Shown here in pieces: positions 35,859-38,418 of a stretch of 64,000 bases of DNA (position 1 is the first letter of the stretch; each line of letters opens with the position of its first letter). Under the pieces are notes generated by a model. That model did not search any database and was not told where the DNA came from. It saw only the letters and a list, made by a program, of their open reading frames with translations. The translations under genes and the position numbers were made by a program. Origin of the DNA: Mycolicibacterium arabiense. Lineage in GTDB: Bacteria > Actinomycetota > Actinomycetes > Mycobacteriales > Mycobacteriaceae. The stretch lies in the NCBI RefSeq assembly GCF_010731815.2, contig NZ_AP022593.1, positions 1,922,001-1,986,000 of the forward strand. The letters are read 5' to 3'.

Positions 35859-36752
35859 CTAGCGCGCAGGCTCGATGGCCTCGAGCACGAAGGTGCGCAC
35901 CTGCCCCTCGGCGGTCGCGCTGCACTGGGACAGCAGCGGAGCCGACATCTGCTCCCCCACCTTGACCTCGACGCTGCCCGCGTCGGTGCCCAGCGTCACC
36001 CGCGTGGTGGCGTCATCGCGCTCCACGCGAAGCGGTGGCAGCGCGTCGATGCGGTCGTCACCAAATGCTTCGCGCGCGAAGTGCTGCGCGGCCTGCACGA
36101 CGTGCGGGAGCGACGTGCGCCCGCGCAGGTGCGAGTCGACGAGACGGCCGTCGAGGTAGCGCCGCACCAGGTCGGCCGCATCCGTCGTGTCGACCCGTCC
36201 GTAGCACAGGCCCTCGGGGAGGACCAGCATCGTGGCGGCGAAGCGGTCGCCGCCGAGATGCGAACACTCCCATACCAATTCGGGGTAGTGGGCGGCGATG
36301 GCCGCGACCGCACCGCGGCCACGCACCGCGCAGCACTGATCGTGCTTGCCGTGCGCACACACGGTGACGAGCGGGCCGGTGACCGCGACGCCGTCGGAGC
36401 CGTCCAGCGCGAGGTCGAGATAGCCCGTCGGGCCGTCCACCTCGCCACCGTAGAGCGCCTCCTCGCCGGGCCGCGCCTGCGCGACGAACCAGCGCCATCT
36501 CGGCGCCTCGGACCTGCGTCCGTGCCTACGAATGGCCGCGATCCGCATGCCGGCCATCTCGGCGCGACGGACGATCGCGCGTCCCAGGACGGGGTCGATG
36601 ACCGTCGGCGACTGCAGGAACGCCGAATGGCCCCAGGGGCCGGACAATTCGAGCATCAGCCAGGAGAAGCCCGCCGAGGCGGTGCCGTACATCGGGTCGT
36701 TGCGGGCGAGACTCTGGTTGCTGCACGGGACCCGCTTGGCCGCTGCGGTCAT
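35859..36752 (-). CDS. Thioredoxin-like [2Fe-2S] ferredoxin (Suc/Fer-like, Apd1/Aim32 family)
   Basis: A 297-aa protein of the sucrase/ferredoxin-like family. The cluster-binding part has VCAHGKHDQCCAV and CSHLGGDRFAATM. Family members use two Cys and two His, the last two in H-x3-H; here the second His position is Asp (HLGGD). The N-terminus has a Cys in RVPCSNQSLARND. It likely passes electrons. ATG 36752 overlaps the stop of the upstream JmjC gene (ATGA), so it is coupled to that oxygenase and may be its electron donor. Confidence 0.75.
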   Translation of the reverse strand: MTAAAKRVPCSNQSLARNDPMYGTASAGFSWLMLELSGPWGHSAFLQSPTVIDPVLGRAIVRRAEMAGMRIAAIRRHGRRSEAPRWRWFVAQARPGEEALYGGEVDGPTGYLDLALDGSDGVAVTGPLVTVCAHGKHDQCCAVRGRGAVAAIAAHYPELVWECSHLGGDRFAATMLVLPEGLCYGRVDTTDAADLVRRYLDGRLVDSHLRGRTSLPHVVQAAQHFAREAFGDDRIDALPPLRVERDDATTRVTLGTDAGSVEVKVGEQMSAPLLSQCSATAEGQVRTFVLEAIEPAR

Positions 36753-37981
36753 TCGCCCGCCGTCGCGACGCGCTCGTCGACCACCGGTACGACGACGGCC
36801 TCGCGCAGCAGCCGGCGGAGCACCACCTCGCCGTCGGCGGCATCCAGGCCGGGCAGGTCGGCGGCACCGAGCGTCGCTCCCCGATGCAGCGCAGCCAGGG
36901 CGTCGGCGCACGACTCCGGGAAGGTGATCGCGCGGTCGGTGAGACGCAGCCGCACCTTCCCGGCGTCGCGTTCCACTGACGCGATCAACCCGTGCCGCCA
37001 CCGCACGCTGACCGCGTCGACACCAGCGGCGGCGTCCAGCGACGCCAGCGGCCGCACGGCGACGGGCCGTGTGCGCTGCGCGTACTGCCGGGTGAGACGG
37101 GCGGCGACGCCCTCGTCGAGCCCGGGTGGGCCGTCGCGCAGCGTCGCGGCGAGCTGGGCGATGACCTTGGTGGCGGTAGCCGTCATCTCGTCGCGGTCGG
37201 TTGCGTTCATCCCCATGGGGAGTGATCTTCTCAGGTCGGCCGCATCGGCCAGCTGGTCGACCAGCGCCCGCACGACGTCGATCCCCGTCATCGCGGCGAC
37301 ACCGATGGTCAGGTGGATCGACACCCCGCCCATCGCCTGCGCGGAGTGAATCCAGCCGCGCGGCAGATAGAGCGCGTCGCCCGGGCCGAGCACGGTGTCG
37401 ATCACCGGGTCGTCCTTGGCGCGTTCGGCCACTGCGGCGCGGTGATCGGTCCACGGTTGATCGGCCAGCGGGTCGAGGTGCACGGGCTCGTGCACGGTCC
37501 AGTGCTTGTGGCCGGTGGTCTGCAACACGAAGACGTCGTGCACGTCGTAGTGCGGGTCGAAGCCGCGGTTCTGCGGCGGCGTGACGTAGGCGTTGGCCTG
37601 CACGGGATGGCCGAGGTCGTCGACCATGCCGCGGACGAAGTCGATGACCGGCGGCCACAGCCGGTGTAGGCCCTGCAGGACGATGGTCGCGCCGGCGGCG
37701 AACTGTGCGAGCACCTTCGCCGAGTCGACCTGGTCGGGCATCTCGGCACCGAAGCCGGCCGGCGCGAGATAGCCGTCCTTGGCCACCACGCCACCCTCCT
37801 TGGCGACGCGGATGAACGGTGCGCGCACCCCGCGTTCGGCGAGCAACTCGTCGACGGCAGCGGCCGAGAGCAGATCGTCGAAGCCGCGGGGCAGCGCGTC
37901 CGATCGGCTGAGCAACGGCGAACCCCCCCAGTGAGTTCGGGCGAACTCCTGGGGGTCGATCGAGATGCAGCGGCTCAGCAT
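36749..37981 (-). CDS. JmjC/cupin-type Fe(II)/2-oxoglutarate oxygenase
   Basis: A 410-aa oxygenase related to ribosomal oxygenases (YcfD/MINA type). The iron facial triad is His144 and Asp146 in RGFDPHYDVHDVFVLQ plus His212 in LPRGWIHSAQ; Lys159 in GHKHWTVH is in place to bind 2-oxoglutarate. A C-terminal winged-helix-like part follows. Such enzymes hydroxylate side chains of proteins, often His, Arg, Asn or Asp. It starts 6 nt after the stop of a repeat peptide gene rich in exactly such residues, and overlaps the ferredoxin-like gene. A ribosomal substrate cannot be excluded. Confidence 0.85.
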   Translation of the reverse strand: MLSRCISIDPQEFARTHWGGSPLLSRSDALPRGFDDLLSAAAVDELLAERGVRAPFIRVAKEGGVVAKDGYLAPAGFGAEMPDQVDSAKVLAQFAAGATIVLQGLHRLWPPVIDFVRGMVDDLGHPVQANAYVTPPQNRGFDPHYDVHDVFVLQTTGHKHWTVHEPVHLDPLADQPWTDHRAAVAERAKDDPVIDTVLGPGDALYLPRGWIHSAQAMGGVSIHLTIGVAAMTGIDVVRALVDQLADAADLRRSLPMGMNATDRDEMTATATKVIAQLAATLRDGPPGLDEGVAARLTRQYAQRTRPVAVRPLASLDAAAGVDAVSVRWRHGLIASVERDAGKVRLRLTDRAITFPESCADALAALHRGATLGAADLPGLDAADGEVVLRRLLREAVVVPVVDERVATAGE

Positions 37982-37987
37982 CGAGCG

Positions 37988-38236
37988 TTAGGCGGAACCG
38001 TCGGCACCGCCGTCATGGCCCTCGGGATTGGAGCCACCATCCGCGGTGCCCTCGCCACCGGCAGAGCCGTCGGCGCCGCCGTCATGACCCTCGGGGTTCG
38101 AGCCACCGTCAGCCGTGCCCTCGCCACCGGCGGACCCGTCAGCACCGCCGTCATGACCCTCGGGATTCGAGCCGCCGTCAGCAGTGCCCTCGCCGCCGCC
38201 GGCCGAGGTGGTGATGTCGTCGTCGTTGATCGCCAT
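37988..38236 (-). CDS. 82-aa peptide with three identical 23-aa repeats, candidate modified-peptide precursor
   Basis: The first 13 residues (MAINDDDITTSAG) look like a short leader. Residues 14-36, 37-59 and 60-82 are three perfect copies of a 23-residue unit rich in Gly, Asp and Ala, containing TADGGSNPEGHDGGADGSA. The DNA copies differ only at third codon positions (8-9 differences per pair), so the peptide sequence is under selection. ATG 38236 is preceded by AAGGAGA at good spacing. The TAA stop is 6 nt from the JmjC oxygenase start. It has no Cys, Lys or aromatic residue. It is not a known family to me; substrate status is inferred. Confidence 0.8.
   Translation of the reverse strand: MAINDDDITTSAGGGEGTADGGSNPEGHDGGADGSAGGEGTADGGSNPEGHDGGADGSAGGEGTADGGSNPEGHDGGADGSA
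37991..38197. repeat. Three tandem 69-bp coding repeats
   Basis: Units at 37991-38059, 38060-38128 and 38129-38197 (C- to N-terminal on the minus strand). Pairwise differences are 9, 8 and 9, all at third codon positions. Confidence 0.95.
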
Positions 38237-38418
38237 GAAAATCTCCTTCGTCGGACCGCACCGGGCTAGTTGAGCAGGAGTGACCTGCTGGGGCACGGTG
38301 CCGCGTGAATTGCCACCGAACGCGATCGGTAAACGGAAGGCACGCCTTGCCTTCCTGGCGGGCCCTACCCGGGGCCGCCCGTCTGATCCGGCATGCCGCA
38401 TCGGAGCAGAATGCTGGT

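Follow-up and report, generated by a model that had tools for sequence, protein, structure and literature searches.

What does a bacterial JmjC Fe(II)/2-oxoglutarate (2OG) oxygenase act on when its gene directly follows a gene for a small repetitive peptide? The question is raised by a locus of Mycolicibacterium arabiense (contig NZ_AP022593.1), within the 64,000-nucleotide (nt) stretch of DNA that we analyzed as a whole (the window; positions 1,922,001 to 1,986,000 of the contig). Genes for an 82-amino-acid (aa) repeat peptide, a JmjC oxygenase, and a Suc/Fer-like protein follow one another there on the minus strand (Table 1). The answer that we hold with moderate confidence is a minimal cassette resembling those of ribosomally synthesized and post-translationally modified peptides (RiPPs), in which the JmjC protein would bind an acidic leader and hydroxylate the repeated Asp residues, with the Suc/Fer protein contributing an accessory redox step.

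Pairing of the repeat peptide with the oxygenase

The layout described in the initial annotation of this locus was reproduced throughout: the order of the three genes, a gap of 6 nt between the peptide and JmjC genes, a 4-nt overlap (ATGA) in which the Suc/Fer start codon lies on the JmjC stop codon, and three 23-aa units that are identical in protein sequence and carry 26 pairwise nucleotide differences (8+9+9), all silent. These differences fall in 12 DNA columns, every one a third codon position. With 26.6% of random single changes being synonymous and the columns taken as independent, 12 silent columns out of 12 would arise by chance with a probability of about 1e-7. The peptide contains 12 Asp, 6 Glu, 3 His, and 4 Asn residues, has a net charge of -18 when unmodified, and gives one match only within its own genome. 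A Leifsonia relative of the peptide (P0023) is entered in one database record as "BatC protein," and no literature on this name was found.

A scan with one genome per species yielded 68 loci with close JmjC relatives, in Mycobacterium/Mycolicibacterium, Gordonia, Williamsia, Rhodococcus/Rhodococcoides, Antrihabitans, and Aldersonia. The peptide precedes the JmjC gene in all 68; it was read directly upstream in 65 and is interrupted in 3, by an assembly gap (L010) or by broken reading frames (L045 and L054). Among 200 genomes of the window's order, a JmjC profile matched 120 (E value ≤1e-20) and a peptide profile only 66; the peptide profile misses divergent repeats, which are seen upstream of the enzyme. 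At 63 of the 67 distinct peptide places in these genomes, a JmjC gene lies directly downstream on the same strand; the remaining four comprise one place at a contig end and three weak matches (E values of 1e-4 to 7e-4). A peptide that is common without the oxygenase had been named in the initial annotation as the observation that would speak against a link between the two, and no convincing case was found among the 67 places.

The JmjC profile also matched 65 of 393 genomes of the class (E value ≤1e-50) and 28 of 296 genomes of the phylum (E value ≤1e-45). The loci fetched from these searches numbered 111 for the order, 44 for the class, and 17 for the phylum, together with three weak order matches. 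A detector for an Asp-rich, small-residue open reading frame (ORF) ending near the JmjC start was positive upstream of 211 of 223 JmjC genes (66/68 in the close set, 103/111 in the order set, and 42/44 in the class set) versus 6 of the 309 other long ORFs inside the fetched loci that served as the chance control; some places recur in two locus sets, and the counts across sets are not independent. The misses were L010 and L045 in the close set, five contig ends (at most 226 nt upstream) and three distant paralogues (L180 to L182) in the order set, and two distant paralogues (L223 and L226) in the class set. Among the class loci counted as positive, L217 and L218 have acidic but nonrepetitive ORFs. 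Of the 17 phylum loci, 15 have an Asp-rich peptide; L257 is at a contig end, and L264 has only 139 nt of upstream sequence, with a short acidic ORF. The three added order matches comprise a contig end (L265) and two paralogues without the peptide (L266 and L267, the latter being the same place as L180). The pairing of peptide and JmjC genes is well above chance, and the link that had been read from their tight packing is strongly supported. The locus thus shows the adjacency expected of a RiPP, a small precursor gene beside a putative modifying enzyme, with the modification itself being predicted.

Several sources label such enzymes NO66-like or L16 Arg81 hydroxylase, and spurious ORFs arise in G+C-rich genomes. 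The JmjC protein might accordingly be an ordinary ribosomal-protein oxygenase and the upstream ORF a low-complexity, G+C-rich sequence or a translational leader. We consider this highly improbable given the detector counts above, the conservation of the unit at the protein level with changes at third positions only, and the ribosome-binding site in front of the peptide gene. The genome context instead points to the peptide, not a ribosomal protein, as the substrate.

Table 1. Features of the cassette in the window
Feature	Position	Strand	Basis or remark
Suc/Fer-like protein, 297 aa	35859..36752	-	PF06999, E value 9.5e-18
Thioredoxin-like [2Fe-2S] ferredoxin domain, aa 126-212 of the Suc/Fer protein	36117..36377	-	
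JmjC Fe(II)/2OG oxygenase, 410 aa	36749..37981	-	PF08007, E value 9.4e-28
C-terminal winged-helix domain, ~aa 321-400	36782..37021	-	AlphaFold2 model; order like that of a RiPP recognition element (RRE); candidate leader-binding domain
H212, third predicted Fe(II) triad residue	37346..37348	-	145/145 in subfamily; aligned to NO66
H144-x-D146, predicted Fe(II) triad	37544..37552	-	H 145/145 and D 144/145 in subfamily; aligned to NO66
Repeat peptide, 82 aa	37988..38236	-	Homologues found
Repeat unit 3, 23 aa	37991..38059	-	Sequence
Repeat unit 2, 23 aa	38060..38128	-	Sequence
Repeat unit 1, 23 aa	38129..38197	-	Sequence
Putative leader, aa 1-13, MAINDDDITT...	38198..38236	-	Acidic DDIT-type motif; leader role putative
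Likely ribosome-binding site AAGGAGA of the peptide gene	38242..38248	-	Sequence
Inverted repeat, 8-bp arms, GGAAGGCA-N5-TGCCTTCC	38335..38355	.	By eye; ~100 nt upstream of the peptide start

Predicted features of the JmjC oxygenase

The AlphaFold2 model (mean predicted local distance difference test score of 90.9) shows a JmjC enzyme of the NO66/MINA53 type that carries a winged helix at its C terminus. In sequence as well as in fold, no solved structures come closer than those of NO66 and MINA53. The features that mark a ribosomal oxygenase (ROX), a JmjC_2 domain, an HxD...H iron triad, and the ROX fold, were all found. In the model, the winged helix is built from strands at residues 325-328, 334-339, 342-347, and 351-355, followed by helices at 356-366 and 381-393.

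Two further JmjC_2 proteins are encoded in tandem in the same genome (L002, G000:C1; JmjC matches at 76206-76520 and 77099-77440; positions 203-1108 and 1111-2043 of L002). An acidic ORF of 60 aa (21-203) directly precedes them, and the ORF that follows matches PF02522 (Antibiotic_NAT) but scores under the NCBIfam AAC(3) cut-offs; the tandem genes and the acidic ORF are possibly another peptide-modifying pair. Distant JmjC paralogues adjoin a SagB-family dehydrogenase (L180/L267), a thiomuracin-family precursor (L181), and a small Cys-containing uncharacterised ORF (L223).

Repeat variety and the candidate target residue

The unit in the window is of the type NPxGHDGGADG. Other lineages have xPGxHDGGADGG or plain DGGADGGA, and the deepest branches carry DADGTDGDATD or GDADQGDS units. 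A looser detector, which required Asp, recovered 233 repeat cores from the 243 locus records. His is missing in 51 of these cores, Asn in 109, and both in 34, with Asp present in 233/233, as the detector demands. By itself this last figure is no evidence; what carries weight is that nearly all nonparalogue loci with enough sequence passed the Asp detector. His, Asn, and Asp had all been put forward as plausible hydroxylation targets; Asp survives from this list, and His and Asn are weaker guesses because they are not common to all repeats. What the repeats have in common is Asp with Gly, Ala, Ser, or Thr on its flanks, and this Asp is the best candidate target.

Hydroxylation of the HDGG histidine of each repeat, with Asp serving for recognition, would be in keeping with NO66 and MINA53, which are His hydroxylases. 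Each unit in the window has one His, and His stands ahead of DGGAD 384 times in the cores. However, the same position is held by Ala (476 times), Gln (66), Gly (50), Ser (42), and Arg (15), and the cores from the phylum search are mostly of the DADGTD type without His. Together with the 51 cores devoid of His, this makes His an unlikely target.

In a FastTree phylogeny of 126 JmjC proteins, repeat type, in classes of our own definition, requires 25 changes compared with a mean of 70.9 after shuffling, and none of 200 shuffles gave a value as low, indicating that the substrate changes in step with the enzyme. The same pattern could also result from shared species history alone.

The Suc/Fer protein

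The Suc/Fer protein matches PF06999 and has the thioredoxin-like [2Fe-2S] fold. Its central domain matches the Aquifex aeolicus ferredoxin and is extended by extra N- and C-terminal parts; a search of solved structures by sequence gave no match up to an E value of 1. A profile detected Suc/Fer downstream of the JmjC gene in 192 of the 243 locus records (64/68 in the close set, 76/111 in the order set, 36/44 in the class set, and 16/20 among the phylum loci and added order matches), and 15 of the 17 phylum-search loci have it. The 4-nt overlap of the JmjC and Suc/Fer genes recurs in 51 of 64 loci when the start codons closest to that offset are picked. In the other 51 records, some of which are contig ends or distant paralogues, Suc/Fer was not found within the sequence covered. 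One family group (f15) retains the peptide and JmjC genes in all 23 main loci, and Suc/Fer was found in the covered stretch of none of them (one is cut by a contig end). The protein is probably ancestral and lost at times, which weighs against an obligatory electron carrier. 2OG oxygenases draw their electrons from 2OG. The role of electron carrier first assigned to it was not borne out by these loci, and Suc/Fer looks like an accessory component.

The motif HxGGH, which we take to be the bis-histidinyl cluster motif of Apd1/Aim32-type ferredoxins, is altered in this family. Of 137 aligned proteins, 124 have Asp, 10 have Cys, and 3 have Glu in place of its second His, and the family does not fit the bis-His ligation of Apd1/Aim32-type ferredoxins. 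The last position of HxGG[D/C/E] is probably a [2Fe-2S] ligand position that switches among Asp, Cys, and Glu, as far as the alignment indicates. The Cys/His set is invariant across the 137 proteins.

This invariance, the frequency of the gene, and its common overlap with the JmjC gene would suit a pathway in which hydroxylation is a first step and Suc/Fer helps to turn hydroxy-Asp into, for example, a keto product or an aminomalonate-type residue. A two-step cascade from Asp to aminomalonate is reported, by title, by Kim et al. (2025). Against such further oxidation stand the f15 loci, and we know of no decarboxylase or oxidase that consists of a ferredoxin domain alone. We give it a low probability, similar to that of hydroxylation at His.

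Neighborhood and regulation

Conserved neighbors were sought by clustering ORFs of at least 70 aa in the loci of the close, order, and class sets, with flanks of 5 kb for most close relatives and about 1.2-2.5 kb for most others. JmjC and Suc/Fer are the only common clustered genes, the next cluster occurring in nine loci. No conserved protease, transporter, regulator, or immunity gene was found in the covered flanks, and such genes could lie elsewhere. A wider conserved operon was likewise sought in these loci and not found. A stand-alone ORF resembling the LigD 3'-phosphoesterase (PF13298; 38419-38781, plus strand) lies divergent from the cassette and is absent from the conserved cassette neighbors.

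The lack of conserved processing and export genes in the flanks could also mean that the enzyme does not act on the peptide, which would then be its acidic partner and might serve to carry iron or a cofactor, as a chaperone, or in regulation. Its strong negative charge and near-constant position next to the enzyme are compatible with this. However, repeat number and spacing vary widely and the pattern of Asp with small residues stays, as expected of an iterative substrate, and RiPP genes adjoin distant sister enzymes. A partner role is, in our estimate, quite unlikely, and we retain the peptide as the probable substrate.

At an E value of 1, none of the peptide, JmjC, and Suc/Fer proteins had a match in NCBIfam. 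Promoter-like sites were looked for and not found; one terminator-like site, against 0.4 expected, lies within the JmjC gene. Boxes of the IdeR/DtxR, Zur, and CsoR-like types, searched with consensus motifs, were not enriched upstream of 188 peptide genes. The closely related loci L006, L007, L008, and L056 match 13-14 of the 19 IdeR positions, with shuffles reaching 13, and the window has no IdeR box at up to three mismatches. A metallophore under iron control is unsupported by these results. A mobile or phage origin was rejected, as the JmjC protein had no match in plasmids (E value 1e-30) or phages (E value 1e-10); its PHROG matches are of unknown function. PADLOC models match none of the three proteins, and anti-phage defense was set aside.

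Proposed mechanism and role

In the mechanism that we propose, the small gene would encode an acidic precursor in which a short DDDIT-type leader precedes a core of Asp-rich repeats. In 195 of 233 peptides, the N-terminal region has a DDIT-type motif, which would be the mark of this leader; the winged-helix domain of the JmjC protein may hold the leader. The enzyme would then hydroxylate the repeated Asp residues successively, probably at the beta carbon, with Fe(II), O2, and 2OG. Suc/Fer, combining a thioredoxin-like [2Fe-2S] ferredoxin with extra domains, may carry out an accessory redox step that is missing in some lineages.

Several observations weigh against hydroxylation of Asp in a leader-guided peptide. 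His is the residue hydroxylated by NO66 and MINA53, the enzyme's closest relatives of solved structure, and 182 of the 233 cores contain it. The occurrence of Asp in all cores is partly built in by the detector, which also took in the paralogue L180. The DDIT-type motif is absent from 38 of 233 peptides. In two class loci (L217 and L218), the JmjC gene lies beside an acidic nonrepeat ORF with no Suc/Fer found, representing a changed or decaying cassette. Finally, the flanks hold no conserved protease, transporter, or immunity gene, unlike many RiPP clusters.

The small, exporter-free layout and the absence of plasmid and phage matches fit a cell-internal role better than that of an antibiotic. 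Metal binding by a hydroxy-Asp peptide is a guess; no IdeR, Zur, or CsoR box is enriched upstream of the peptide genes. More broadly, and only tentatively, the cassettes could form a phylum-wide, hitherto undescribed RiPP-like class in which leader-binding JmjC enzymes make poly-(beta-hydroxyaspartyl) peptides, perhaps further oxidised with a mixed-ligand [2Fe-2S] protein, that act as intracellular metal-binding or protective multivalent polyanions and not as exported antibiotics.

So simple and widespread a substrate-enzyme pair would make a new protein modification directly accessible. If the proposal is correct, the many equivalent sites would ease the assay and engineering of an iterative Asp hydroxylase, bacterial JmjC proteins now labelled NO66-like or ribosomal-protein hydroxylases would gain a likely biological substrate, and the NO66/MINA/YcfD fold would join the peptide-maturation enzymes.

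Comparison with known systems

No description of the cassette was found in the searchable full-text literature, outside which most subscription journals lie. A 2025 paper by Kim et al. in the Journal of the American Chemical Society (JACS) reportedly concerns, by its title, a two-enzyme-step conversion of aspartate to aminomalonate, and it may or may not deal with the cassette family. The Introduction of PMC12636437 groups the JACS paper on aspartate to aminomalonate with work on 2OG enzymes in RiPPs, and it also cites a second JACS paper of 2025 on a Cys-Tyr crosslink formed by a 2OG enzyme.

NO66, MINA53, and YcfD (JmjC_2, PF08007) resemble the cassette enzyme in predicted whole-chain fold, C-terminal winged helix, and HxD...H triad. 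According to the titles of their structure entries, their substrates are ribosomal proteins, whereas the cassette enzyme is tied to a dedicated repeat peptide. The thioredoxin-like [2Fe-2S] ferredoxins including Aim32 (PMC8482512) share the central domain and PF06999 with Suc/Fer and differ from it in the motif His and the extra termini. Bufferins and other peptides modified by multinuclear nonheme iron-dependent oxidative (MNIO) enzymes likewise involve a nonheme-iron enzyme, with a repetitive precursor in one type and metal binding by bufferins (PMC12452194); the enzyme is of another superfamily and the repeats are Cys-based (EGKCG), unlike those of the cassette.

RRE-like domains fused to PF08007 are described from fish and algae, with bacterial homologues in "RiPP-like genomic contexts"; an Asp-repeat precursor and a Suc/Fer partner are not named in the portion of that article considered here (PMC12710340). 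BipG is a JmjC ornithine hydroxylase acting on a RiPP precursor in biphenomycin biosynthesis, and its cluster includes a transporter, an MNIO, a radical S-adenosylmethionine enzyme, and a protease (PMC12707348), whereas the cassette has two or three genes and Asp-rich repeats. Judged by its genes, the cassette would be a variant of a RiPP-like pathway whose RiPP membership is unproven, built around a pair that is widespread in actinobacteria.
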